Part shown: positions 1 through 63,330 of the stretch, in pieces
How positions within the stretch are numbered: the first letter of the stretch is position 1
Layout: the number at the start of each line of letters is the position of its first letter
Assembly: GCA_025617745.1 (NCBI GenBank)
Contig: CM046873.1
Coordinates: forward strand, 28,719,410-28,783,409
DNA: 64,000 bases
Origin: Heliocidaris erythrogramma
Taxonomy: Eukaryota > Echinodermata > Echinoidea > Camarodonta > Echinometridae
Direction of reading: 5' to 3'
Position numbers and translations under genes: made by a program
Notes under the pieces: model-generated
Database searches by the model: none
What the model was told of the DNA's origin: nothing
What the model saw: the letters and a program-made list of their open reading frames with translations, nothing else

Positions 1-946
1 TCAGTTGAAGTATTTCTTATTTCGAAAAGTATACTTTATTGTCTGTTTTATTGCAGTGGTATGAATTCGGGTTTCTCAGATGGTTCGGGGATTTCCAATT
101 CCCCGCTGTTAAGTGGTGTGATTCGGTCGTTCTTTTTGAAGCGACCTCCTTGTTCTAGGTTAGTGCCGTCTTGGAGTCTGCCTAAGGTCCTGGAGGCCTT
201 GGCGAAACCTCTTTTCGAACCGTTAGGTGAAGCTCTCTTCATCATCTTACGGTTAAGACGCTCTTTTTGGTAGCTTTTGCCTCTGGGCAGAGGCGCAGTA
301 CTCTTCAGGCTCTCTGCCTTACTCCTGGTCATGTTCGCTGGGAGAGAAAAGGCGTTAGATTGATTCCTAAGGCTTCTTTTATTGCCAAGAATCAGACAGC
401 TGCCTCTGGCCCTGTTGAGATTTTTCTTTGTCTGCTTTCTGGGTTTTCGTCAGTGCGCGAGGACAAAGTTTGGTGTCCTGTTAGGGCTCTCAAATGGTAT
501 ATTGATAAGACTAAGTCTTATCGTAAGGATGATCAGTTGTTCCTGATCACTAGAGAGCCTTTTTCTCCTGCTTCTCTTGATTCCATTTCTAGATGGATTG
601 TCGAGGCTATTAGGGCTGCTGGCACAGGGGCTCTTTTTTCCGACAGTAAGCCTCGTGCTCATGACACTCGTAGTGTCGGCACTTCTTGGGCTCTGTTTCA
701 AGGTGTGGCGCTTGATGATATTTTGAAGGCTGCTTATTGGCGTTCGCCCAATTCCTTCATTTCTTGCTACCTTAGGGATGTTCCCGCAGGTGAGGCTATG
801 TTTGCGTCAGCCACCTTGAAGGCCGCTGTGTCTTTGTATTCTTCGCTGTAATCCTATTCCCTTCTGCTTGAAACATGCCTCCCGGTCTTTGAGTTGGCGC
901 TGGTCTGGCATAATAGGTAGGTATATATGATTTATTGCAGTAAATT
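1..946 (+). mobile_element. YR element, copy A (left end outside window)
   Basis: This is the right part of a DIRS-type tyrosine-recombinase element in intron 3 of gene A. It ends in the inverted repeat 906-946 (TGGCATAATAGGTAGG...), whose partner is visible in copies B and D. The position-1 sequence is identical to that at 17281, so about 530 bp of its left end are missing from the window. No reverse transcriptase is visible in any copy. Confidence 0.8.
61..851 (+). pseudogene. Tyrosine recombinase (DIRS-type), frameshifted, copy A
   Basis: The recombinase reading begins at ATG 61 and runs in one frame to about position 234. There the similarity moves to the frame used by the 267-851 ORF, so a one-base break splits the gene. 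The second part (194 aa) has the family's catalytic signature. An Arg lies in GQRRSTLQAL, HDTR supplies His-x-x-Arg, a Trp in AAYWRSPNSF takes the place of the usual second His, and the nucleophile Tyr is in ISCYLRD. This pattern fits YR proteins of DIRS-like elements, which cut and rejoin DNA through a 3'-phosphotyrosine link. The upstream TTTATTGCAG resembles a splice acceptor. Confidence 0.75.
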
Positions 947-1256
947 TGTAAAATCAGCACTGATTTTCTTATTTACTATATAAATCTATATACCTACCTA
1001 TTATGCCAGTAGTCTTGACTACGGGACCCCTTCGAGAATTTAACACAAATGAGTCACAATATTGTGCGCACCCCCCGTAATCCTATTGTCCCCTTCGCCA
1101 CTCACGCGCGTCAACACGCTACGGCCATCTTCCTCTCTTGCGAGCAATCCCAAGTAGAAACATGTTGCTTGCAAGGTGAGGGGAAGGAGGGAGGGTCATA
1201 GGTAGGTATATAGATTTATATAGTAAATAAGAAAATCAGTGCTGATTTTACAAATT
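943..1256. mobile_element. 314-bp element with perfect 59-bp TIRs, copy A
   Basis: This is a non-coding element abutting the right end of the YR element and overlapping it by AATT (943-946). The inverted repeats 943-1001 and 1198-1256 are perfect complements over 59 bp. The 196-bp core (1002-1197) starts with about 135 bp that also occur just inside the left TIR of the YR element (TATGCCAGTAGTCTTGAC...). It may therefore be a non-autonomous relative mobilised by the same recombinase. Confidence 0.82.
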
Positions 1257-14052: not shown

Positions 14053-17000
14053 ATGAATCGATTCCTGGTCCTGCTGGTCGTGCTGGCCCTGGTCCTGGGC
14101 CTAGTCGCAGCTAGGTCCCAACCTAAAAAGAATAAAGGCAGGAACAAGGAAGGCGGAAGGCGTGTGGGAAAAGGTACCTTAGATTAAATCATACTCAGAC
14201 AAAATGTATGAGCCAGAGCAGGCACCGGAAATGACCTGCGTTGATAAGGAATGATGGGCCCTACTATCGGCCGTCTAATTAATGATGGTTGTAGCAGTTG
14301 GGAATAACATTGATCATCAAGAAGTAAACAAACCAAAAAGCAAAAACAAACAATAAGCACACACAAAAAAACAGAGGGACAACCAATGTAAAATCTCTCT
14401 AAGTCTCCCCCTCTTTATAAAGGCCACTTGGCTATAGTGACCCCCTAAATTTTCTCCCTCAAAAAAAAAGAAAGAAATACCATTCATCTGTCTACATTGG
14501 TCACGTTTTGTATTTTCCTTGGGTTGCCTTATTATAAATATTTGACTCATTTGGGAAAGGAAAAAATTATACAATTGTATTTAAGCTTGAGAATATAATA
14601 GATTCAGGGGTGTTTTTCCGAAATTTAAAACCGGGGGGGGGGGGGGGGAGGGGGTAGGATATATTTCGCTATTTTTGAAGGTTCGGGAGCCGTTGACCGA
14701 CTGCAAGTGGAATTACCCCTGGCCTTCAAACAACGTATGGGTTGGGGGGGGGGGGGGGGGGGGGGGCTCATCACTTCGTTCGGAAGGAAGAAGTATCTTG
14801 TGCACTTCTCATTTTCAATAATTATTTTCATTAAAAAATCGTGATAAAATTCTGTTCGGATCTTTGGTTTTCACCAAGGTCGACATGTGTGATGTGCCTT
14901 AGGTAAGGCACACCAATTAAAGCTTGAGAGTAACGATTAAAAATCTGTAAAAAATTGAGAACACGTCGACGTCAGATATTGGAATCATGATAAATACATG
15001 TATGTATATAGAAAGAAACATTCGTGTTCATTGTAGACATGGTAGAATCTATGTTCTTTCGTCAAATTAATCAGTGGTGGAACTCTATTAATCTCAAATT
15101 TATATCACCCATGCATGCACAGGCAACACCGAACCCGCAGCCGAAGTAGAATGGACGTGGGGCGAGTGCGTACCGAACAAAGGCTCATGCGGCAAGGGAC
15201 AGAAGACCGGTAACTGCAGCGGTGAGTTGTGTGAAGTCGCCAACGAGACAACCGCCTGCCGCGTCAAGTGCGCAAAGGAAGCGGGCACAACCGAAGCTCC
15301 GGCTAACGGCGATGTTGAAGGGGCGGTCACGGATGCAGCTCCGGCTCGAGGCGGCGGTAGACCCGGTAAAGGACGTCGACCGAGCAAGGACGGGACTGGG
15401 ATGACTCAGGAGAACAACGGGAACGGGAATGGGAGGAGGGAGAAGCCACCAAGAGGGGAGCGAAGACCCAACAAGACCGACAAACCAGCTAAGACAAAGG
15501 GTGAGCTAAATAACCAACAGACCAGGGCCTCGTTATCAATAACAAGTTCTGATAATCGTTATAAGCTACTGAAATCCTTGAATCTGATGGGCTGAGAGCG
15601 AAGTTGTCACAGAAATGAGCCAGTTTTTTTTAACTAATAACACCTTTTATTTAAGAAAACTTGTTATCAGTACCACCTGTCACGATATTCTGTAACAAAA
15701 TGGACTAACAGCGAAAATTCTTAGTAGCGTATCTTTATCAATATTGTAAAAAAAGTTAAATGTTACAAGTTAAGTTACAAGTTAAATGAAACAATGCCAA
15801 GATCACAAATGCTTAAGATATGTTATGCATGTAATTATCTGCTAAGCTAGTTACTCAAAATAATACTATAGCTTGTCAGAAGCTTGCCGGAATAACAATA
15901 ACTTATTAATGTGATTTATCACTATCAAATATTATACCTTGTGATTACGTATACCGGTGAATGCAATAATTGGTATTTTGGTTCTCGGAGAGTAAGCGCC
16001 AATACATTTGAAAAGATTAGTACACCTGTGTTAATTCTTATAATTACCCATGGATCTATTCCAAGTTTAAGCTTAACTATATGCCCTTTTCCCAAAAGCT
16101 ACTAGTCACCGTCATAAAGGCCCTACAATGTTGGACGCCCCCCTAAACAAACAAACACAAAAACAAAACAAAACTGAATAGTACTACCGATTATAATGTA
16201 GACCTATATCTCTTTGATTTTTGCTTTATCATTCTTTCCTAGAATGCACATATGCAAGAGCGACGATGTCCGATTGCGACCCGATCACCAACAGAATGAA
16301 CAAGACCCGGGCCCTGAAGGGAACCCCTACCCTAGAATGTCCTGAGGTCGTCGTAGAAACTGTGCGGTGCGAGAGGATCACATTGAAGAGAGAGAACAGA
16401 AGTGAGTATTTGTCTGGTTTAGAAGGGGCGAATCCAGAAATTTATAATGGGGGGGGGGGGGCATTATTCTTCCGACCGGGGGAGGTGAAAGTGACCTTGC
16501 TAGAGGGGTGCAAGAGGATGGCTTGTCACATCCCGATTCAAAATGATCTGCAACGCCCCTGGCGAAAGGGGGGGGGGGCGGATGGGGAGGCGGAATGTTG
16601 ACCCGCGGTAACTCCGAAGTGGCTTATTATTGCAAATGGACTCTACCAACAGCTATTTTGAAAAGAGATTAACTAGATAATCGTCTGGTATTGTTTATAA
16701 GGACAGACTTTGTCAGTATGGAGAAGGTTGACGAATGTCATTTGTCAACAATTTACTGCAATAAATCATATATACCTACCTATTATGCCAGTAGTCTTGA
16801 CTACGGGACCCTTCGAGAATTTAACACAAATGAGTCACAATATTGTGCGCACCCCCCGTAATCCTATTGTCCCCTTCGCCACTCACGCGCGTCAACACGC
16901 TACGGCCATCTTCCTCTTTCTTGCTCGCCCCCGACGAGATAGGACGTATAGTCACAGCGCTCCTGAAATCAGGTCGTATAGTATCTTTTAGGTGCGCTTT

Positions 17001-20000
17001 TTCGCACATTTAAAGCACTTTTAGGTACCTATATTCGCTTAGATTATAGTACTGTATGTTTAGTAGTCACTTTTGCCGATTGCAAGGGATTTTTGATATC
17101 CTTTTCTTGGCATTTATTTTTCCCTTTCACGGTCAGCCCCACGTAGATATTTCTGTGTGTTTGCGGGTGTTTCCGTTTGTCACCGAGCCTTTGGGTTCGG
17201 TGTTTGTTCTAACGGTTTTTTGGCTGTGAAAATCTTTTGTGCGTATCTCCCAAATAAATTTTACTCTTATTTTACTGCATTCAGTTGAAGTATTTCTTAT
17301 TTCGAAAAGTATACTTTATTGTCTGTTTTATTGCAGTGGTATGAATTCGGGTTTCTCAGATGGTTCGGGGATTTCCAATTCCCCGCTGTTAAGTGGTGTG
17401 ATTCGGTCGTTCTTTTTGAAGCGACCTCCTTGTTCTAGGTTAGTGCCGTCTTGGAGTCTGCCTAAGGTCCTGGAGGCCTTGGCGAAACCTCTTTTCGAAC
17501 CGTTAGGTGAAGCTCTCTTCATCATCTTACGGTTAAGACGCTCTTTTTGGTAGCTTTTGCCTCTGGGCAGAGGCGCAGTACTCTTCAGGCTCTCTGCCTT
17601 ACTCCTGGTCATGTTCGCTGGGAGAGAAAAGGCGTTAGATTGATTCCTAAGGCTTCTTTTATTGCCAAGAATCAGACAGCTGCCTCTGGCCCTGTTGAGA
17701 TTTTTCTTTGTCTGCTTTCTGGGTTTTCGTCAGTGCGCGAGGACAAAGTTTGGTGTCCTGTTAGGGCTCTCAAATGGTATATTGATAAGACTAAGTCTTA
17801 TCGTAAGGATGATCAGTTGTTCCTGATCACTAGAGAGCCTTTTTCTCCTGCTTCTCTTGATTCCATTTCTAGATGGATTGTCGAGGCTATTAGGGCTGCT
17901 GGCACAGGGGCTCTTTTTTCCGACAGTAAGCCTCGTGCTCATGACACTCGTAGTGTCGGCACTTCTTGGGCTCTGTTTCAAGGTGTGGCGCTTGATGATA
18001 TTTTGAAGGCTGCTTATTGGCGTTCGCCCAATTCCTTCATTTCTTGCTACCTTAGGGATGTTCCCGCAGGTGAGGCTATGTTTGCGTCAGCCACCTTGAA
18101 GGCCGCTGTGTCTTTGTATTCTTCGCTGTAATCCTATTCCCTTCTGCTTGAAACATGCCTCCCGGTCTTTGAGTTGGCGCTGGTCTGGCATAATAGGTAG
18201 GTATATATGATTTATTGCAGTAAATTTGTAAAATCAGCACTGATTTTCTTATTTACTATATAAATCTATATACCTACCTATTATGCCAGTAGTCTTGACT
18301 ACGGGACCCCTTCGAGAATTTAACACAAATGAGTCACAATATTGTGCGCACCCCCCGTAATCCTATTGTCCCCTTCGCCACTCACGCGCGTCAACACGCT
18401 ACGGCCATCTTCCTCTCTTGCGAGCAATCCCAAGTAGAAACATGTTGCTTGCAAGGTGAGGGGAAGGAGGGAGGGTCATAGGTAGGTATATAGATTTATA
18501 TAGTAAATAAGAAAATCAGTGCTGATTTTACAAATTCCTCGTATTAGACGTTTTTCTATCTATATCCAACCCGGCCTGGTATGACTGATGCTTACAGTTA
18601 TTTATTATGAGGTTTGCTCGGTCATTGCACCTAATCATTTTTAATTTCCTTGAAATGTTTGCGACCGTGTTATATCAACTTCAAGTGTTTCTTTTTAAAC
18701 TTTAACCTCAGATTGTAACTACACGAGGGGTGAGTTTGGACCGTGCAATGAGACGACAAACCGTATGACCAGACAGGACACACTCTCAGACCCCGACCAG
18801 GTTTCTGAGGAGTGCAGATTGGTGAGGACCATCGAGAAGAAATGTCCCAGATCAGGTATGGAAATCTTCATTTGGTAAAAAAAAATATGCATTTTGACCA
18901 TTAAAGGATCAGCCCTTTTGTCTATTGTGCCCACCCCTTTTAGAATGAAAACCTGTTTTTTTTAAACTTTTTTTTTTAATCATCGTCTGCAATGTTATTA
19001 TACTGAGTAATCTTATTTCCATTTGTTTGAAAATCTCGGCTAACTGCCCCTTTAAAATATCCCGCCGTCGTTATTACAGTCGCATGACCGAATAGCTAGG
19101 CCTACCCGCATTTATGAATATATCTTTTGTATTTTATCTTTCTCTCACACATCGTAGAGAATAGTGGTAAGCCTGTGCGATGCAGGTATAACTGGGAGCT
19201 AGCCCCTGCCTGCGACGAAACCACGAATAAAATCACCATGACTGGCTCGCTTGTGATTGTAGAGGGCGCCCCAGCTGACTGCGAAGCCGTCAGGACACAC
19301 GAATTGAATTGCAAACAAGGCAAAGGTAGGTGATACTCTTCCTTCCTTGTGATTTCATCCAGATTTGGGAGTCACTAGGGGTGTCAACTATTTTTTGTCG
19401 TAGAAAGGGATGGGGGACTAATCGATTGGGAATATCGATTACAAAGGTAGACAGATGCACTCTGGATTGTGACCAGTGTTCAACATTCTCTAAACCAATC
19501 GGATGCTTCACCCATTACCTGAATTCATGGCAAAGCCTATATTTATGTACTCATAATGGTTTAGATATTATTTGTAATCAGAGACTATATAATGTTGATT
19601 CTGTTCTAAAAGTTTTAGGCTGCACGACTCCGAAACATGTGTTCTATGTTGTTTTTATGTTAAAGCTGTTATGATGTCGTCCTTTTTGATTATGTTCAAT
19701 CTTCCCATCCCTCCTTCGCATTGATGTCTTCCGATTTGCTATTCTCTTTTACGTAACAAAACAATGATGAGAGACAATACGAGAGACAGGACTTGACGTG
19801 TGTGTTTTGAAAAAGATTTCTCACCAACCGGAAATATCTAACGTTTGAAAAATCAGTAGAAACGGTAATTTTCGAAATATGGGATATGGATGGTAACGAT
19901 GGAGCGGGATTCCTGTGAAATTACGCTTCTTGTTATGTTTGATTTTATGTTTGATAAAAACACCTTCTTTACCTCTCCTCCCTGCAGTACCATGTTCACT

Positions 20001-34300: not shown

Positions 34301-36026
34301 ATTTGTAATAAACAATTCCTCGTATTGGACGATTTTCTATCTATATCCAACCCGGCCTGGTTTTATCGATGTTTCAACAAGTATGACTGATGGTTACAGT
34401 TATTTATTATGAGGTTTGCTCGGTCATTGCACCTAATCAATTTTAATTTCCTTGAAATGTTTGCGACCGTGTTATATCAACTTTAAGTGGTTTTTTTTTA
34501 ATTTAACCTCAGATTGTAACTACACGAGGGGTGAGTTTGGACCTTGCAATGAGACGACAAACCGTATGACCAGACAGGACACACTCTCAGACTCCGACCA
34601 GGTTTCTGAGGAGTGCAGATTGGTGAGGACCATCGAGAAGAAATGTCCCAGATCAGGTATGGAAATCTTCATCATTTGGTAAAAAAAAATATGCATTTTG
34701 ACCATTAAAGGATCAGCCCTTTTGTCGATTGTGCCCACCCCCTTTTAGAATGAAAACCTTTTTTTTTTACTTTTTTTTAATCGTCTGCAATTTTATTTTA
34801 CCGAGTAATCTTATTTCCATTTGTTTGACAATCTCGGCTAACTGCCCCTTTAAAATATTCCGCCGTCGTTATTACAGTCGTATGACCGAATAGCTAGGCC
34901 TACCCGCATTTATGAATATCAAATTTGTCTTTTATCTTTCTCTCACACATCGTAGAGAATAGTGGTAAGCCTGTGCGATGCAGGTATAACTGGGAGCTAG
35001 CCCCTGCCTGCGACGAAACCACGAATAAAATCACCTTGACTGGCTCGCTTGTGATTGTAGAGGGCGCCCCAGCTGACTGCGAAGCCGTCAGGACACACGA
35101 ATTGAATTGCAAACAAGGCAAAGGTAGGTGATACTCTTCCTTTCTTGTGATTTCATCCAGATTTGGGAGTCACTAGGGGTGTCAACTATTTTTTGTCATA
35201 GAAAGGGATGGGGGATTAATCGATTGGGAATATCGATTACAAAGGTGGACAGATGCACTCTGGATTATCACCAGTGTTCGACATTCTCTAAACCAATCAG
35301 ATGCTTCACCCTATTACCTGAATTCATGGCATAGCCTATATTTATGTATAATATAATATAATATGCCCATTTATATAGCGCAGCCACTATATGGATATAC
35401 TCTACTGCGCTTAATACAAAGTATCACATTATTACCCCGGCTATGTACTCATAATGGTTTAGATATTATTTGTAATCAGAGACAATATAATGTTGATTCT
35501 GTTCTAAAAGTTTCAGGCTGACGATAGAGTATGCACGACTCCGAAACATGTGTTCTATGTTTTTACGTTAAAGCTGTTATGTCGTCCTTTTTGATTATGT
35601 TCAATCTTTCCTACCCCTCCTTCCCATTGATGTCTTCCGATTTGCTATTCTCTTCTACGTAACAAAACAATGATGAGAGACAATACGAGAGACAGGACTT
35701 GACGTGTGTCTTTCAACAAAAATTCTCACCAACCGGAAATATCTAACGTTTGAAAAATCAGTAGAAACGGTAATTTTCGAAATATGGGATATGGATGGTA
35801 ACGATGGTGCGTGATTCCTGTGAAATTACGCTTCTTGTTATGTTTGATGTTATGTTTGATATAAACACCGTCTACTTTACCTCTTCTCCCTGCAGTACCC
35901 TGTTCACTAGGTGAATGGGGTGAATTCAGCGAGTGCCTGGACGGAATCCAGACTCGAACCCGTGAGCTGCAGAAAGGCCCTCACATCTGCCAACGTCTCA
36001 TGCGGGAGTCAGTCACTTGTGAATAA
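31350..36026 (+). CDS. Midkine/pleiotrophin-like gene C, complete (366 aa), no YR element
   Basis: The coding exons are 31350-31470, 32418-32795, 33643-33801, 34513-34656, 34956-35123 and 35896-36026. Exon lengths and phases match gene B exactly. The product has a signal peptide, a six-cysteine N-domain, a basic linker and four C-domain modules. It is the most divergent copy, with substitutions such as AAG for AAE and AGP for AGT in exon 2, MSEC for MSDC in exon 3, SDS for SDP in exon 4 and ITL for ITM in exon 5. All cysteines are kept. Intron 3 is short (33802-34512) and lacks the recombinase element found in A, B and D. Intron 2 carries an extra inverted-repeat element at 32818-32955. The intact frame and conserved splice sites suggest a functional gene. 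Confidence 0.88.
32818..32955. repeat. 138-bp inverted-repeat MITE in gene C intron 2
   Basis: The ends GGGGCGTTTCATGAAAGGA and TCCTTTCATGAAACGCGCCCC-type are inverted repeats. It is absent from the matching intron of B and D. The interior (CTCAGCCAATCAGATGCAAG) is the reverse complement of sequence found immediately to its right in all copies, so it sits next to an older, inverted relative. Confidence 0.72.
32956..33045. repeat. Older relative of the adjacent MITE
   Basis: This reads CTTGAATCTGATTGGCTGAG, the inverted counterpart of the interior of 32818-32955. It is also present in gene B (about 15524-15600) and gene D (about 53277-53355). Confidence 0.55.
35346..35445. repeat. Short interspersed repeat fragment in gene C intron 5
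   Basis: TATAA repeats lead into GCCCATTTATATAGCGCAG and end near ACCCCGGCT. It is absent from A, B and D. It resembles the opening of the repeat at 63105-63330. Confidence 0.55.
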
Positions 36027-41835: not shown

Positions 41836-44791
41836 TCATTCATGGTTGTAATTTAGCAGCAGATGTTTCTTCATTAGAGCTTTAAAAGAAAAATGAGAAG
41901 AGGCAGTTTTTATATTTCCAGGTAGTGAGTTCCATATATCAGGACCATTGTGTCTAATAGTTTTTTGCGCTATGAATAGTCTGGGATTGTTCAAGTGAAT
42001 ATCAGAAGAATGACGTGTTGGATAGGAATGAATGCTGGAGTTTTGAGTGAAAGCATTTTGAAGAGTACTAGGTAGAGACTGTTTCGAGAATTTAAACATA
42101 AAAATAGCCGTTTGGATTACATGAATGTCATTTATTTTAAGTGTTTTGAGTTTGTAAAATAACGGATCTGTGTTTGCTAAATAGTGCGAAGACGTACAAA
42201 TGCGCAGCGCTTTTTTCTGGAGTAAAAGTAATGAATTGATTCTTGTTTTGTAGGAATTTCCCCATGGTTACAGTAAGATAAATACGGATAAACTAGCGCA
42301 TTATACAATATAAATAAGGATTTTTGAGGTAAACTGTCTTTTAGTTTGTTTAATATACCTACTCCTCTTGACATGTTAGATGATATATTATCAACGTGAT
42401 TTTCCACGTTAAATTGGAATCTATTAACACCCCCAAGAACTTTGTTGGATCTTTACTAGTAAGGGTAACATCGTCAATAATTATATCGTCGTGGAAAAAA
42501 TTTGCTGAACTCGCAGTCTTAAAGTATATGAAGTTAGTTTTGCTTATATTGAACGAAAGTTTATTGCATTTAAACCAATGGGATATATTAATTAATTGTG
42601 TATTAATTGTTTCAATTAGTTCATTTAAATCCTCATGGGAATGAAATACATTAGTGCCATCTGCAAATAATATATATGATAATGATGGCGCAGAATGAAC
42701 AATGTCGTTAACATAAATTAGAAAGAGGAGTGGACCCAAAAGGGATCCTTGGGGAACGCCACATTTTATAGTGGATGTTTGTGATCTACTATTATTATAT
42801 TGAACAAATTGGGATCTATTGGAAATGTAACTTTTAAACCAAGATAGGGTATTTCCCCTTATTCCATAATGCCTAAGCTTTTGTATTAGAATTGAATGAT
42901 CAATGGTATCGAATGCTTTCGAAAGGTCCATAAAAATTCCAATTGTGTGCTCCTTTTTAGAGAGAGATTTAGTAATTTTATCAGTTAATTCAAGGATTGC
43001 ATAGTCAGTTGGAAGGTTCTTTCGGAATCCATATTGGTTGGGAGTAAGTACATTATTTGTAGCCAAAGAAGAATATAATCTCTTGTAGCCAATTTTCCCC
43101 AGTATTTTGGATATGCTTGACAGTAAAGAAATCGGACGATAGTTACTTATTAAAGATGGATCATCTTTTTTGTGGATGGGAATTACTTTCGCAATTTTCA
43201 GTGCATCAGGAAATATTCCCGAGGAGAGGGATAAATTAAAGATGTGAGTGAGGGGAGATGTTATGTAATAATTTGTTTTAGGAGATGAACGCTTATTTCA
43301 TCATGTCCACTTGATTTTGTATCATTTAATAATCGGACAATTTCTAAAATCTCATAGTCATTAGTTGGATTAAAAAACAAAGAGGCGTTGTTATTGTTTG
43401 GAAGGTATTGGGAAAAATGTCCATGGTCTGTTTGAATTTTTGATGCTAAATCTGGTCCAATATTTATAAAGAAATTGTTAAAAGAATGTGCTATTTCATC
43501 AGGGTTATTGATAACACGGTTATTATGAGTGAATTCTATTTTAGGGTGAGAGTCTTTCTGGCGACCGAGTATATTATTTACAGTTTTCCAAGGGAATCCG
43601 TGTTATTTTTATCGTTTTCAATTATTCGTGAGAAGTATAATTTACGAGAAATGCGGATAACTGTTGTTAATTTATTACGGTATTTAGTCTATTTTGTATG
43701 ATTCTCAGTATTTGGTTGACGTAGTGATTTTTTATATAAGATATTTCTGGTATGTATTGATTTAATAATTCCTCGTGTAATCCAAGGATGTTTACTACGG
43801 TTTTTATGTAACTTTATTTTTTGTAAAATGATGTTTTTGTTATAATAATATGAGAGCTTATTAGTACAAATTTCATATTGACGTCATCTTCATAGAATAC
43901 GTCCTGCCATGCTTCTTCATATAAATCATGAATCAATGCATCTATATTTTGTTTTGTTTCAGCCCTTTGCATTCGAAAACTATTTTTTTCTCCGGTACAA
44001 TTTGCTTTACTCTTGACTAGTTATCATGAATACAGGAAGATGGTCAGAAATGTCATAATACAGTACACCATTGTCTTTATTAATAGGATCATTAGAGAAA
44101 ATATTATCGATTATTGATTGTGTTGAGCTGGTAATCCTGGTTGGTTTATCGATATGTGAATGGAGAGAATGGGATGACAAGATGTTTATAAGTTGAAGGC
44201 GGTGGTAACTGTGAGGGGTTGAAAATCAATATTAAAGTCTCCTACAATGTATTTGAATTTGTTTTCTGTGGAAATTTTATCAAGGCAAACGTCTATACTT
44301 TGTAAAAATGATTCAGTTTTATTGTTTGGTGGTCTGTATACAACTCCAACTACTGTGTTTTTTGATTTACTATCTATCAGTTCTAGCAATAAGTCTTCAG
44401 CATCTTCAATGTGTATGTCCGGTCTTAGCTTACATTTTAAGTCTTTATGAATATAGACGGCTACCCCACCGCCTCTTCCAATCTGGCGATCTACTCGAAA
44501 GAGATCATAATTTGGAATATCATATATAGGTGGAGAATTATGATTCAACCACGTTTCCGTCAATGCGATTAGGGAAAACTGAAAATTTTTAACGACTAAC
44601 AGAAGTAAATTGAAATTATCAAAACTTTTGTTCAAGCTTCTAGTGTTTAGATGAATTAGACTAAGTCCATTTGTAGAAGTATCATTGTTTCCTGCATTTA
44701 AAGAATTAAACTTAGCATTAAAATCCTCAGTTGTATAGTAATCACTATGAATATTCAAGGCCTGATTATCATTAAGGTCATCATTGTTCAT
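41836..44791 (-). mobile_element. CR1-like LINE, longer copy in unit 3
   Basis: This is the fullest copy. The endonuclease region is 44186-44791 (TRSLNKSF, LTETWL, YRPPN, VGDFNIDF). The RT region is about 42360-43260, with FMDLSKAFDTID (motif A), GVPQGSLLGPLLF (motif B), YILFADG (motif C) and the C-terminal tail 41836-42099 (HSYPTRHSSD, GPDIWNSLP). Motif C reads FADG instead of FADD, so the second catalytic aspartate is lost. Frame breaks separate the parts. The element opposes the host array in direction. The 5' boundary upstream of 44791 was not resolved. Confidence 0.82.
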
Positions 44792-51813: not shown

Positions 51814-54800
51814 ATGAATCGATTCCTGGTCCTGCTGGTCGTGCTGGCCCTGGTCCTGGGCCTAGTCGCAGCTAGGTCCCAACCTAAAAAGAATAAAGGC
51901 AGGAACAAGGAAGGCGGAAGGCGTGTGGGAAAAGGTACCTTAGATTAAATCATTCTCAGACAAAATGTATGAGTCAGAGCAGGCACCGGAAATGACCTGC
52001 GTTGATAAGGAATGATGGGCCCTACTATCGGCCGTCTAATTAATGATGGTTGTAGCAGTTGGGAATAACATTGATCATCAAGAAGTAAACAAACCAAAAA
52101 GCAAAAACAAACAATAAGCACACACAAAAAAACAGAGGGACAACCAATGTAACCAAATCTCTCTAAGTCTCCCCCTCTTTATAAAGGCCACTTGGCTATA
52201 GTGACCCCCTAAATTTTCTCCCTCCAAAAAAAGAAAGAAATACCATTCATCTGTCTACATTGGTCACGTTTTGTATTTTCCTTGGGTTGCCTTATTATAA
52301 ATATTTGACTCATTTGGGAAAGGAAAAAATTATACAATTGTATTTAAGCTTGAGAATATAATAGATTCAGGGGTGTTTTTCCGAAATTTAAAACCGGGGG
52401 GGGGGGGGGGGAGGGGGTAGGATATATTTCGCTATCTTTTAAGGTTCGGTAGCCGTTGACCGACTGCAAGTGGAATTACCCCTGGCCTTCAAACAACGTA
52501 GGGGGGGGGGGGGGGGGGGGCTCATCACTTCGTTCGGAAGGAAGAAGTATCTTGTGCACTTCTCATTTTCAATAATTATTTTCATTAAAAAATCGTGATA
52601 AAATTCTGATCGGATCTCTGGTTTTCACCAAGGTCGACATGTGTGATGTGCCTTAGGTAAGGCACACCAATTAAAGCTTGAGAGTAACGATTAAAAATCT
52701 GTAAAAAATTGAGAACACGTCGACGTCAGATATTGGAATCATGATAAATACATGTATGTATATAGAAAGAAACATTCGTGTTCATTGTAGACATGGTAGA
52801 ATCTATGTTCTTTCGTCAAATTAATCAGTGGTGGAACTCTATTAATCTCAAATTTATATCACCCATGCATGCACAGGCAACACCGAACCCGCAGCCGAAG
52901 TAGAATGGACGTGGGGCGAGTGCGTACCGAACAAAGGCTCATGCGGCAAGGGACAGAAGACCGGTAACTGCAGCGGTGAGTTGTGTGAAGTCGCCAACGA
53001 GACAACCGCCTGCCGCGTCAAGTGCGCAAAGGAAGCGGGCACAACCGAAGCTCCGGCTAACGGCGATGTTGAAGGGGCGGTCACGGATGCAGCTCCGGCT
53101 CGAGGCGGCGGTAGACCCGGTAAAGGACGTCGACCGAGCAAGGACGGGACTGGGATGACTCAGGAGAACAACGGGAACGGGAATGGGAGGAGGGAGAAGC
53201 CACCAAGAGGGGAGCGAAGACCCAACAAGACCGACAAACCAGCTAAGACAAAGGGTGAGCTAAATAACCAACAGACCAGGGCCTCGTTATCAATAACAAG
53301 TTCTGATAATCGTTATAAGCTACTGAAATCCTTGAATCTGATTGGCTGAGAGCGAAGTTGTCACAGAAATGAGCCAGTTTTTTTTAACTAATAACACCTT
53401 TTATGAGACGGGGCCTATGGGTCCATTTAAGAAAACTTGTTATCAGTACCACCTGTCACGATATTCTGTAACAAAATGGACTAACAGCGAAAATTCTTAG
53501 TAGCGTATCTTTATCAATATTGTAAAAAAAGTTAAATGTTACAAGTTAAGTTACAAGTTAAATGAAACAATGCCAAGATCACAAATGCTTAAGATATGTT
53601 ATGCATGTAATTATCTGCTAAGCTAGTTACTCAAAATAATACTATAGCTTGTCAGAAGCTTGCCGGAATAACAATAACTTATTAATGTGATTTATCACTA
53701 TCAAATATACCTTGTGATTACGTATACCGGTGAATGCAATAATTGGTATTTTGGTTCTCGGAGAGTAAGCGCCAATACATTTGAAAAGATTAGTACACCT
53801 GTGTTAATTCTTACAATTATAATTACCCATGGATCTATTCCAAGTTTAAGCTTAACTATATGCCCTTTTCCCAAAAGCTACTAGTCACCGTCATAAAGGC
53901 CCTACAATGTTGGACGCCCCCCTAAACAAACACAAAAACAAAACAAAACTGAATAGTACTACCGATTATAATGTAGACCTATATCTCTTTGATTTTTGCT
54001 TTATCATTCTTTCCTAGAATGCACATATGCAAGAGCGACGATGTCCGATTGCGACCCGATCACCAACAGAATGAACAAGACCCGGGCCCTGAAGGGAACC
54101 CCTACCCCAGAATGTCCTGAGGTCGTCGTAGAAACTGTGCGGTGCGAGAGGATCACATTAAGGAGAGAGAACAGAAGTGAGTATTTGTCTGGTTTAGAAG
54201 GGGCGAATCCAGAAATTTATAATGGTGGGGGGGGCATTATTCTTCCGACCGGGGGAGGTGAAAGTGACCTCGCTAGAGGGGTGCAAGAGGATGGCTTGTC
54301 ACATCCCGATTCAAAATGATCTGCAACGCCCCAGCGCGAAAGGGGGGGGGGGGGGGCGGATGGGGAGGCGGAATGTTGACCCGCGGTAACTCCGAAGTGG
54401 CTTATTATTGCAAATGGACTCTACCAACAGCTATTTTGAAAAGAGATTAACTAGATAATCGTCTGGTATTGTTTATAAGGACAGACTTTGTCAGTATGGA
54501 GAAGGTTGACGAATGTCATTTGTCAACAATTTACTGCAATAAATCATATATACCTACCTATTATGCCAGTAGTCTTGACTACGGGACCCCTTCGAGAATT
54601 TAACACAAATGAGTCACAATATTGTGCGCACCCCCCGTAATCCTATTGTCCCCTTCGCCACTCACGCGCGTCAACACGCTACGGCCATCTTCCTCTTTCT
54701 TGCTCGCCCCCGACGAGATAGGACGTATAGTCACAGCGCTCCTGAAATCAGGTCGTATAGTATCTTTTAGGTGCGCTTTTTCGCACATTTAAAGCACTTT

Positions 54801-57800
54801 TAGGTACCTATATTCGCTTAGATTATAGTACTGTGTGTTTTAGTAGTCACTTTTGCCGATTGCAAGGGATTTTTGATATCCTTTTCTTGGCATTTATTTT
54901 TCCCTTTCACGGTCAGCCCCACGTAGATATTTCTGTGTGTTTGCGGGTGTTTCCGTTTGTCACCGAGCCTTTGGGTTCGGTGTTTGTTCTAACGGTTTTT
55001 GGCTGTGAAAATCTTTTGTGCGTATCTCCCAAATAAATTTTACTCTTATTTTACTGCATTCAGTTGAAGTATTTCTTATTTCGAAAAGTATACTTTATTG
55101 TCTGTTTTATTGCAGTGGTATGAATTCGGGTTTCTCAGATGGTTCGGGGATTTCCAATTCCCCGCTGTTAAGTGGTGTGATTCGGTCGTTCTTTTTGAAG
55201 CGACCTCCTTGTTCTAGGTTAGTGCCGTCTTGGAGTCTGCCTAAGGTCCTGGAGGCCTTGGCGAAACCTCTTTTCGAACCGTTAGGTGAAGCTCTCTTCA
55301 TCATCTTACGGTTAAGACGCTCTTTTTGGTAGCTTTTGCCTCTGGGTAGAGGCGCAGTACTCTTCAGGCTCTCTGCCTTACTCCTGGTCATGTTCGCTGG
55401 GAGAGAAAAGGCGTTAGATTGATTCCTAAGGCTTCTTTTATTGCCAAGAATCAGACAGCTGCCTCTGGCCCTGTTGAGATTTTTCTTTGTCTGCTTTCTG
55501 GGTTTTCGTCAGTGCGCGAGGACAAAGTTTGGTGTCCTGTTAGGGCTCTCAAATGGTATATTGATAAGACTAAGTCTTATCGTAAGGATGATCAGTTGTT
55601 CCTGATCACTAGAGAGCCTTTTTCTCCTGCTTCTCTTGATTCCATTTCTAGATGGATTGTCGAGGCTATTAGGGCTGCTGGCACAGGGGCTCTTTTTTCC
55701 GACAGTAAGCCTCGTGCTCATGACACTCGTAGTGTCGGCACTTCTTGGGCTCTGTTTCAAGGTGTGGCGCTTGATGATATTTTGAAGGCTGCTTATTGGC
55801 GTTCGCCCAATTCCTTCATTTCTTGCTACCTTAGGGATGTTCCCGCAGGTGAGGCTATGTTTGCGTCAGCCACCTTGAAGGCCGCTGTGTCTTTGTATTC
55901 TTCGCTGTAATCCTATTCCCTTCTGCTTGAAACATGCCTCCCGGTCTTTGAGTTGGCGCTGGTCTGGCATAATAGGTAGGTATATATGATTTATTGCAGT
56001 AAATTTGTAAAATCAGCACTGATTTTCTTATTTACTATATAAATCTATATACCTAACTATGACCCTCCCTCCTTCCCCTCACCTTGCAAGCAACATGTTT
56101 CTACTTGGGATTGCTCGCAAAAGAGGAAGATGGCCGTAGCGTGTTGACGCGCGTGAGTGGCGAAGGGGACAATAGGATTACGGGGGGTGCGCACAATATT
56201 GTGACTCATTTGTGTTAAATTCTCGAAGGGGTCCCGTAGTCAAGACTACTGGCATAATAGGTAGGTATATAGATTTATATAGTAAATAAGAAAATCAGTG
56301 CTGATTTTACAAATTCCTCGTATCTATATCCAACCCGGCCTGGTATGACTGATGCTTACAGTTATTTATTATGAGGTTTGCTCGGTCATTGCACCTAATC
56401 ATTTTTAATTTCCTTGAAATGTTTGCGACCGTGTTATATCAACTTCAAGTGTTTCTTTTTAAACTTTAACCTCAGATTGTAACTACACGAGGGGTGAGTT
56501 TGGACCGTGCAATGAGACGACAAACCGTATGACCAGACAGGACACACTCTCAGACCCCGACCAGGTTTCTGAGGAGTGCAGATTGGTGAGGACCATCGAG
56601 AAGAAATGTCCCAGATCAGGTATGGAAATCTTCATCATTTGGTAAAAAAAAATATGCATTTTGACCATTAAAGGATCAGCCCTTTTGTCTATTGTGCCCA
56701 CCCCCTTTTAGAATGAAAACCTGTTTTTTTTTACCTTTTTTTTTTAATCATCGTCTGCAATGTTATTATACCGAGTAATCTTATTTCCATTTGTTTGAAA
56801 ATCTCGGCTAACTGCCCCTTTAAAATATCCCGCCGTCGTTATTACAGTCGCATGACCGAATAGCTAGGCCTACCCGCATTTATGAATATATCTTTTGTAT
56901 TTTATCTTTCTCTCACACATCGTAGAGAATAGTGGTAAGCCTGTGCGATGCAGGTATAACTGGGAGCTAGCCCCTGTCTGCGACGAAACCACGAATAAAA
57001 TCACCATGACTGGCTCGCTTGTGATTGTAGAGGGCGCCCCAGCTGACTGCGAAGCCGTCAGGACACACGAATTGAATTGCAAACAAGGCAAAGGTAGGTG
57101 ATACTCTTCCTTCCTTGTGATTTCATCCAGATTTGGGAGTCACTAGGGGTGTCAACTATTTTTTGTCGTAGAAAGGGATGGGGGACTAATCGATTGGGAA
57201 TATCGATTACAAAGGTAGACAGATGCACTCTGGATTGTGACCAGTGTTCAACATTCTCTAAACCAATCGGATGCTTCACCCATTACCTGAATTCATGGCA
57301 AAGCCTATATTTATGTACTCATAATGGTTTAGATATTATTTGTAATCAGAGACTATATAATGTTGATTCTGTTCTAAAAGTTTTAGGCTGCACGACTCCG
57401 AAACATGTGTTCTATGTTGTTTTTATGTTAAAGCTGTTATGATGTCGTCCTTTTTGATTATGTTCAATCTTCCTATCCCTCCTTCGCATTGATGTCTTCC
57501 GATTTGCTATTCTCTTTTACGTAACAAAACAATGATGAGAGACAATACGAGAGACAGGACTTGACGTGTGTGTTTTGAAAAAGATTTCTCACGAACCGGA
57601 AATATCTAACGTTTGAAAAATCAGTAGAAACGGTAATTTTCGAAATATGGGATATGGATGGTAACGATGGAGCGGGATTCCTGTGAAATTACGCTTCTTA
57701 TGTTTGATGTTATGTTTGATAAAAACACCTTCTTTACCTCTCCTCCCTCCAGTACCATGTTCACTGGGTGAATGGGGTGAATTCAGCGAGTGCCTGGACG

Positions 57801-61654: not shown

Positions 61655-63094
61655 CTACTCATCATCATCATCATCATCATCATCGTCATCATCATCGTCA
61701 TCATCATCATCATCATCGTCGTCGTCGTCGTCATCATCACTGCTCAACATTGACATCAAGCCTTTTCTGCTTCCATCCTCTTTACGGGTGGACTTGAAAG
61801 TCGCCATACTCTCGAGTCTGTTTGATAGGGTGCTGCCAAGCCCCTTCTGCCCCCGTCCCGCCCTCTCCTTGCGTGTTCCATGAAAAGCTATCATGGAGTA
61901 GTCTTCAAAAGTTTCCTTTTTGACCAATCTCTCCTTCTGTCTCTCTTCCATTCTTTTCCTCATCATCAGAAACTTTTCCTTATCGCTCAGTTTGGGTTTA
62001 TCCTCGGCCAGCGGTGGTGGGGTCTCGGGTTTCGTCTCAGCAGAGTCATGATCGATAGCTACAGATGCTGAACGATTGTCTCTATAAGGTGATGAACATG
62101 ATAAAGATGGCAGTCGAATTTTGGTTTCAGCACTCTCTACACTTCCCTTCTTTTCAGTTCCTTCGTCAAGAGATTTTATACTGGAAGATTTTGATTTCGT
62201 CGACTTGGAAGATTTTGCCCTCTCATTTCGGGTCTTTTTCTTTGTTTTGAATGATTTTGTAGAAGGCGGGGGTGACGGTGGTGGTAAAATGTCCGGCTGT
62301 GTTATAATGGGTTCGTCCATCATCATTGGCGGTTCGATATCATTATCGCTATCATGGCTATCGTCGCTATCACTCCTCTGTCGTCTGCGAAGCTTTACCT
62401 TCCGTGATTTGTTCGTGCGGAGAAAGTCCACGCGCGGTTTGTCCGTTTGCGCGCCCTCCACACAACAAGCCTCGCAACTTCTGCGGAAATGTGTCGGAGA
62501 ATGAGAAGGTGCGGGTTTTCTGCGCTTCTCTCTATCTCGTCTTTCCTGTATTTTCTTCTCTTCCTCCTCTACGTCAATATTCAACACATCCCAGTCGTTG
62601 ATGTGCGATTGGACGTATCGGATATCGAAGTTGAGATCTACGTGTGGGCGTGGACTAGTCAAATCTAGTGCTTCAAATATGGCAAGAGGCTCGCTGTTAG
62701 CCATTGTCATGTTCTCAATGATTTCCGAGGCCTCGTCATTTTCAATTTCTTTCTCTACCATGTCTTTGTACCACTCCTCTGAGCCCCTCTCGTACATTGT
62801 CATTTGGAGCCCTTCTTCCATGGCCGAATTTTCCCGCGCCGTCTGTCCGTTGAGCTGTCGTCTGACCGCGCGTAGCTTCTTGCAGAGCGCAACATCGAGT
62901 TGTTCCTTCGCATAGATGAGCCGACGGTAGGTGGGCGAGTTGCTTCGAGAGTGGTATCCATATTTCGAAGGCTCAACGATGACTTCTCTATTGGAGTCTC
63001 GGTGGTGTCTTGTCTGAGATGTGGCGGATTCCAGTCTAGATGGGAGTGAGTTCGGGCGGGGTGATATCTTCGGTGATCCGTTGACGATGCTCAC
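61655..63094 (-). CDS. Unrecognised gene, last exon; acidic C-terminal tail
   Basis: This is a single open exon of 480 codons on the - strand, stop at 61655-61657. It opens at GTG directly after a CAG (63097-63095) with a short pyrimidine stretch, so it is best read as an internal or terminal exon behind a splice acceptor. GTG is not a plausible eukaryotic start, and earlier exons should lie at higher coordinates or beyond the window. The product is very hydrophilic. It has a Ser/Arg-rich start, an acidic helical middle (NDEASEIIENM), a Lys/Arg-Glu segment (EEEEKKIQERRDREKRR), basic clusters that could be nuclear signals (RKVKLRRRQR, KTKKKTRNERAK), a proline run and a second charged coiled-coil-like stretch. 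It ends in 26 Asp and one Glu. No domain was recognised. A cytoplasmic or nuclear protein is likely, and the function is unknown. It converges on the array. Confidence 0.7.
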   Translation of the reverse strand: MSIVNGSPKISPRPNSLPSRLESATSQTRHHRDSNREVIVEPSKYGYHSRSNSPTYRRLIYAKEQLDVALCKKLRAVRRQLNGQTARENSAMEEGLQMTMYERGSEEWYKDMVEKEIENDEASEIIENMTMANSEPLAIFEALDLTSPRPHVDLNFDIRYVQSHINDWDVLNIDVEEEEKKIQERRDREKRRKPAPSHSPTHFRRSCEACCVEGAQTDKPRVDFLRTNKSRKVKLRRRQRSDSDDSHDSDNDIEPPMMMDEPIITQPDILPPPSPPPSTKSFKTKKKTRNERAKSSKSTKSKSSSIKSLDEGTEKKGSVESAETKIRLPSLSCSSPYRDNRSASVAIDHDSAETKPETPPPLAEDKPKLSDKEKFLMMRKRMEERQKERLVKKETFEDYSMIAFHGTRKERAGRGQKGLGSTLSNRLESMATFKSTRKEDGSRKGLMSMLSSDDDDDDDDDDDDDDDDDDDDDDDDDDE

Positions 63095-63104
63095 CTGCGA
63101 ATGA

Positions 63105-63330
63105 AATCAATAATAATAATAATAATAGTATTGTCCATTTACATAGCACAGATACTATACAAATACCCTCTATTTTTTACCCCAGCTTTAGCCAAGATGC
63201 CATGAAAAGACACTCAAGCATTAAAGGAATTTCTAGCTGCCGGGTACCCATTTACTTCACCTATGTGGAGAGTGGCAAATGTAGATTAATGTCTACATGT
63301 GATGCGCAGTTCGGTGACGCATCCACTAGA
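63105..63330. repeat. SINE-like repeat beside the minus-strand gene
   Basis: A TAA microsatellite (63107-63126) leads into GTCCATTTACATAGCACAG, then GCTGCCGGGTACCCATTTAC, GAGAGTGGCAAATGTAG and a tail near CATCCACTAGACCACGAC. The opening matches 35346-35445. The class is inferred from short length and layout. Confidence 0.5.

Follow-up and report, generated by a model that had tools for sequence, protein, structure and literature searches.

The window, the whole analysed stretch of 64,000 nucleotides of Heliocidaris erythrogramma DNA, carries a 314-bp segment in three copies of a gene region, and the 196-bp core of the segment does not point the same way in all three. The locus raises the question of what the segment is, which orientation of the core is the usual one, and how the core was turned round. 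The cores of copies A (1002-1197) and B (18282-18477) are identical, and the core of copy D (56061-56256) reads as their reverse complement at all but one of 196 positions, as the sequence-only reading had reported; read in the same direction as A and B, it differs at 150 of the 196 positions. The 59-bp inverted arms described in that reading were also recovered in all three copies, with no mismatches in A and B and one in D, at position 56056. The single strand of the 314-bp segment in D folds at -79.7 kcal/mol, compared to a mean of -29.5 for 100 shuffled sequences (z -13.15).

Anatomy and site of the insertion

The window holds tandem copies of a midkine-like gene region bearing an open reading frame with a pleiotrophin/midkine N-domain, as identified by self-comparison and a domain search. 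The 314 bp are the right end of one larger DIRS1-like insertion in this region. A donor-like site 3' of the exon-like frame suggests that the element lies in an intron. The features are, from left to right (a slash marks the insertion point):

1-1256, plus strand: copy A of the identical insertion, left part beyond the window, core flipped; matches B fully
905-1001, plus strand: internal complementary region of A
1002-1197, minus strand: core of A, flipped
15092-15595, plus strand: open reading frame with pleiotrophin/midkine N-domain, host gene; donor-like GGTGAGC near 15500
16751-18536, plus strand: copy B of the identical insertion, 1786 bp, right-repeat core flipped
16751-16924, plus strand: left inverted terminal repeat of B, the shared left-end sequence of the sequence-only reading
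17511-18131, plus strand: open frame of 206 aa in B, with R, HxxR, W and Y in order, read by eye
18185-18281, plus strand: internal complementary region of B
18282-18477, minus strand: flipped core of B, with a terminal repeat that runs in the same direction as the left one
18478-18536, plus strand: right terminus of B
34313-34328, plus strand: empty site in copy C, CAATT/CCTCG, uninserted
54529-56315, plus strand: copy D, DIRS1-like deletion derivative, right repeat canonical
54529-54703, plus strand: left inverted terminal repeat of D, beginning ATTTACTGC
55964-56001, plus strand: internal complementary region of D, left half, 38 bp; matches the left terminus in reverse complement
56002-56060, plus strand: left arm of D, 59 bp, formed by the internal complementary region's right half; matches the right terminus in reverse complement
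56061-56256, plus strand: core of D, canonical, about 56 bp plus an inverted copy of the conserved terminal repeat
56257-56315, plus strand: right arm of D, which is the right terminus; last bases ACAAATT

The terminal repeats of D are inverted (54529-54698 against 56287-56120, 97.6% identity over 170 bp). The left end of B, 16751-16924, recurs within the core, and the terminal repeats of A and B are direct because the core is flipped. When the right and left ends of the element are joined and reverse-complemented, they agree with the internal complementary region (ICR) of D, 55964-56060, at 96 of 97 positions; the ICR matches the circle junction. The two 59-bp terminal inverted repeats of the sequence-only reading thus correspond to the right ICR half on one side and the right terminus on the other, and the core is made up of the right terminal repeat and about 56 additional bp. 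The right ICR half and the right terminus lie 196 bp apart and face each other as inverted arms. The 314 bp had been regarded as a terminal-inverted-repeat element of its own; this interpretation falls, since the arms belong to the larger insertion and there is no separate target-site duplication. Among the classified copies, only one (L020, the same as L038) lacks an adjoining ICR flank, and we rejected a separate TIR element or MITE.

Inverted terminal repeats, an ICR equal to the circle junction, the empty site in copy C and ATT ends are the DIRS1 hallmarks of the window; inverted terminal repeats, left and right ICRs, a circle junction and ATT ends are described for DIRS1-like elements in PMC3266345. 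A full-length relative (L010, 602-6292) is about 5.7 kb long, and the copy in the window is without about 3.9 kb of its interior.

The filled site in B reads CAATT/TACTGC at the left and ACAAATT/CCTCG at the right end of the element, and the empty site in C, at 34313, reads CAATT/CCTCG. The single ATT of the empty site has become two ATT in the filled site, which fits conservative joining of a circle without target-site duplication. Because unit C is uninserted at this position, the insertion in A, B and D can be seen to lack a target-site duplication, in the one insertion site compared. The body and near flanks of the A/B and D insertions are 96-100% identical in 250-base steps, gaps apart, and the internal deletion is common to them. 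Between the left terminus and the beginning of the core, B and D differ by three substitutions and three one-base indels. A separate insertion in D with its own target-site duplication, the case named beforehand as speaking against an inversion, does not hold in the assembly, where A/B and D have a common insertion site, near flanks and element body.

Three further observations concern the surroundings of the element. A stretch of 15 bp to the right of the element (18542-18556 in B, with a counterpart in the empty site in C) is absent from D at 56320, a post-insertion deletion. The frame at 42359-43297 on the minus strand encodes a reverse transcriptase (PF00078, E 7.8e-36) of another, LINE-like element. 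A 483-aa frame at 61655-63106 on the minus strand ends in a C-terminal aspartate run, has no Pfam match at E 0.01, and is perhaps a host gene.

The 206-aa frame of copy B is presumably a tyrosine recombinase; it gave no match in Pfam or NCBIfam, and a search of PDB sequences returned a chance-level hit only. Full-length DIRS1-like elements would carry reverse transcriptase, RNase H and methyltransferase; in both full-length copies inspected, L010 and L023, the frames are broken. One L010 frame matched RVT_1 at E 0.058, short of the cut-off, and the comparison of an L010 frame with PDB sequences gave chance-level hits only; the frame may resemble DIRS reverse transcriptase and RNase H. The putative recombinase and reverse transcriptase are named from motif reading, since the family searches did not reach their cut-offs.

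Orientation of the core across the genome

The canonical junction pattern occurs at 2512 places in the genome with up to three mismatches. The flipped junction pattern occurs at 120 places, false positives included, of which 100 were listed. Backwards control patterns, canonical and flipped alike, were found at 0 places. The canonical orientation is far commoner, which makes A and B the flipped ones; the sequence-only reading had named D, which carries the majority orientation. Copies in mixed orientation, for which it had proposed a genome-wide search, were found.

Flipped-pattern places with two or three mismatches include canonical right ends beside a chance flank, as judged from the listed letters. 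Forty-four places with zero or one mismatch were examined, comprising A, B, L013, L026 and 40 fetched loci. All 15 places with zero mismatches are truly flipped, as are 23 of the 29 with one mismatch (29 fetched of 42 listed), which gives 38 of 44; with L105, from the one-mismatch list, there are 39 flipped places. By their flanks, these correspond to about 35 insertions, because A equals B, L087 equals L088, and L085, L093 and L105 are the same. The true share of flipped copies within the range of the patterns is between about 1.5% (39/2551) and 4.6% (120/2632). Loci L047 and L055 were counted as flipped, although their left ICR is reduced to about 16-17 nt, and were left out of the trees.

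The places rejected as not flipped have other structures. In L052, L081 and L091, the right end of one element is joined to the left-end or ICR-like sequence of another, and the joins sit at an ATT junction, which would fit the integration of a circle into an existing junction. L054 has a chance flank and is canonical when read from the other side. In L082 and L098, the ICR is joined to the 5' end of an element; the order is ICR, its right arm, then the 5' end, so that the arm is fused to the left terminal repeat, with which it has about 30 bp in common. Locus L029 (414-894) contains a tandem duplication of the right end, with the junction at a stretch common to the right repeat and the left ICR. 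The 100 listed canonical places with zero mismatches are all on contig C1, and 42 of them lie at 41.8-46.6 Mb, where a plus-strand run turns to the minus strand near 45.3 Mb; this is perhaps a pericentromeric array.

The flipped copies are scattered over the trees of the element. In a tree of the upstream and core sequences with 80 rows (33 flipped and 47 canonical; A, L088, L093 and the second core of L029 left out), orientation needs 21 changes, at least eight of which are forced by well-supported branches. The mean for shuffled labels is 25.7 changes, and 15-17 of 500 shuffles were as low as the observed value, which indicates slight clustering of the flipped label. Because the first canonical set was biased towards D-like copies, a second tree was made from 31 flipped rows and 19 less selected canonical rows (C1 only, zero mismatches), from which the long L043 and L058 were also left out. 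There, 14 changes compare with a shuffled mean of 15.3, and 160-161 of 500 shuffles were as low; the label is not clustered. The nearest neighbours of the 33 flipped rows are only flipped in 16 cases, only canonical in 15 and tied in two, flipped rows making up about two fifths of the sample. Loci L087 and L089 are both flipped and identical over 516 compared positions, and their right flanks are different, the one sign seen that a flipped copy may have been copied. The scatter over the trees led us to reject a single flipped lineage spreading by transposition, for which the L087/L089 pair keeps a small possibility.

Duplicated insertions and the cause of the flip

The right flanks of 12 flipped loci served as queries against the genome, and 13 other places bearing those flanks were fetched. 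In four pairs (L042/L099, L092/L101, L051/L102 and L096/L103), the insertion site and right flank are common and the cores are opposite. In a fifth set, the same applies to flipped L085, L093 and L105, which are equal, and canonical L106. All five duplicate sets that bear the element hold a canonical copy, and together with the set in the window there are six sets in both orientations. L092 and L101 match at 119/119 positions upstream, 59/59 and 59/59 in the arms, 200/200 in the core after it is turned round, and 24/24 in the flank; in this pair and in L085/L106, every compared position is alike apart from the orientation. L042 and L099 differ by eight substitutions besides the flip. One insertion is thus seen in two orientations, whether the duplicates are paralogues or unmerged haplotypes, and in these six sets, as assembled, the change came after insertion. 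At L100, L104 and L107-L111, the flank is present and the element was not found there. Four of the five element-bearing duplicates are on the contig of their partner, 34-268 kb away.

In a second flank search with 18 loci, only the six with 155-base flanks were judged, and none of these six further flipped loci has a near-identical duplicate among the best 40 places. Overall, 5 of 18 flipped loci have an element-bearing duplicate among the best 40 places per flank search; duplicates of loci with short or repetitive flanks could escape a search of this depth. Of 19 usable canonical control loci, 15 were searched, and in nine of these the flank is 155 bases long and does not belong to a common repeat. 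None of the nine has an element-bearing duplicate among its best 40 places, and for one (L064) there is a near-identical copy of the flank that does not carry the element. Flips may be in excess in duplicated segments, which could point to a duplication-linked or an assembly cause; the numbers are too small to judge.

We consider it likely that the flip is a rare, recurrent post-insertion inversion between the arms, made by host recombination or template switching. The DIRS1-like derivative would have been inserted before copies A, B and D parted, bringing with it the right ICR half and the right terminus as 59-bp inverted arms 196 bp apart. After insertion, the DNA between the arms would be inverted by host homologous recombination or by template switching during replication, possibly mediated by a hairpin, and the flip would have arisen in the common lineage of A and B and in many independent events at other loci. 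The high stability of the fold, compared to shuffled sequences, speaks for this reading. An inversion between inverted arms, as proposed in the sequence-only reading, is strongly supported. Host homologous recombination or template switching is the simplest cause; host repair rather than a recombinase of the element would then make the flips, and flipping would be rare and functionless. Precedents are the recurrent palindrome-associated microinversions of chloroplasts, as described in PMC3123225, and, in humans, inversions that recur between inverted repeats (PMC3961182). No stem-loops were found at the bird hotspots studied in PMC3123225 itself, which counts against this reading.

The element ends were read directly, from one copy per insertion (35; the right end of L080 is unreadable), and bear on where the exchange took place. 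Inversion by the recombinase at the junction would be expected to leave target-derived last bases on the internal side of some copies. Of the 34 flipped copies with a readable right end, 22 have an end other than AAATT; the internal side reads AATT in all 35, a count limited by the pattern, which spans the internal side. The pattern for flipped copies allowed up to three mismatches, the fetched places, from which most of these copies come, have zero or one, and a changed AATT was not found among the 100 listed flipped-pattern places with an intact TTGCAGTA ICR prefix. Right ends are also changed in canonical copies (13 of 17 from C1, 14 of 28 from the D-like set), and the internal side is changed in none. 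As the changed bases are at the outer and never at the internal side, the exchange occurred inside the arms or before integration. The right end is unchanged in 12 of 34 flipped, 4 of 17 C1 and 14 of 28 D-like copies, so there is no clear need for matching junctions.

These ends are difficult to reconcile with inversion of the segment by the element's tyrosine recombinase at inverted ATT sites, one in the ICR junction and the other at the right end. The ICR does carry, precisely at the outer boundary of the 314 bp, the reverse complement of the circle junction; both boundaries read AATT in A, B and D; and inversion of the whole 314 bp would yield the same product as a flip of the core. However, target-derived last bases remain outside in 22 of 34 flipped copies and are internal in 0 of 35 (the latter limited by the pattern selection), matching junctions are not clearly needed, and the frames of both inspected full-length copies are broken. 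We consider the recombinase, which the sequence-only reading had brought into play, an improbable cause. Another reading is a flip before integration, in which the right end would pair with the ICR of the same strand during reverse transcription or circle formation. In the DIRS circle model of PMC3266345, termini and ICRs pair with each other; this course of events would leave target-derived bases at the right end, as observed; and L087 and L089 are alike within the element and differ in their flanks. Nevertheless, the six sets that hold one insertion both ways require a later change, unless they are assembly errors, and as a general explanation a pre-integration flip is unlikely; for loci without a duplicate it is equally possible.

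The anatomy of the insertion, its opposite orientations at one site and the recurrence of the flip are observed in the genome as assembled. A further explanation is an artefact: the inverted arms could have been traversed wrongly during assembly, or PCR could have switched template in the library. The flips sit at near-perfect inverted repeats, and near-identical duplicates with discordant orientation exist. Yet the flip is concordant in A and B, in L087 and L088, and in L085, L093 and L105; the eight substitutions between L042 and L099 speak against a single sequence that entered the assembly two times; among about 2500 copies, the flipped ones make up just a few per cent; and the window is free of N. 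An artefact is accordingly rather unlikely, somewhat more so than a flip before integration. The proposal that the core acts as a functional DNA switch in the intron of the host gene finds a motive in the terminal repeats of Dictyostelium DIRS-1, which are strong promoters (PMC4482531), so that a flip could turn a promoter outward. It fares worst: the flipped state makes up at most a few per cent of copies, is common to the duplicates A and B, L087 and L088, and L085, L093 and L105, and occurs at scattered loci with differing flanks, and we regard a switch as very improbable.

Relation to known elements and inversion systems

The element resembles the DIRS1-like elements described in PMC3266345 in its inverted terminal repeats, a conserved part of about 140 bp, two ICRs and a right extension, and in its ATT ends, circle junction, absence of target-site duplication and full length of about 5.7 kb. 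The ICRs are 38 and 59 bp long, and those of AcDIRS1 are listed there at 40-58 bp. Unlike in DIRS1-like elements, the right terminal repeat, which sits between right ICR and right terminus, is turned round in a minority of copies, and this makes the terminal repeats direct. No flipping of DIRS terminal repeats was found in the titles and abstract openings surveyed, mainly of freely accessible papers. The repeat orientation of single copies is a poor basis for classing such elements in annotation.

The flipped copies share with the PAT-type elements of PMC4157794 that their A repeats, at the left end and in the core, are direct, and differ in that their B repeats, in the right ICR and at the right terminus, are still inverted. 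The flipped copies do not have the split direct repeats A1-B1-A2-B2 of PAT, but one of the two repeat pairs only. The scenario favoured in PMC4157794 is that inverted and split direct repeats arose via multiple sequential inversions; the required intermediates had not been observed by 2014, possibly because they are inviable. From their repeat order, the flipped copies would be at most a partial intermediate between the DIRS1 and PAT plans. Since they hold part of the intermediate arrangement, the interconversion of DIRS1 and PAT becomes testable. In Dictyostelium DIRS-1, the right repeat is believed to make antisense RNA, and the opposing repeats give rise to siRNAs (PMC4482531). It is conceivable, and in our view doubtful, that the flipped copies are living intermediates from DIRS1 to PAT, formed by one in-place inversion and in some cases still transposing, for which L087 and L089 would speak, and in which the flip reverses the promoter and changes self-silencing.

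The inverted arms of DIRS1-like elements appear here as a recurrent site of post-insertion microinversion, in one genome as assembled, and the duplicated insertions serve as before-and-after pairs. Parvoviruses have a terminal palindrome in two orientations, flip and flop, which result from the replication of hairpin ends; the two orientations described here are, in contrast, those of chromosomal copies. In the chloroplast microinversions of PMC3123225, as in the present element, sequence beside hairpin-capable inverted repeats flips repeatedly, whereas the sequence here is nuclear, lies within a multicopy transposon, and has arms of 59 bp and a loop of 196 bp. The human inversions at inverted repeats reported in PMC3961182 are likewise recurrent, and differ in scale: they span 5.6 to 37.6 kb, compared to the 196 bp turned round between the arms of the sea urchin element.
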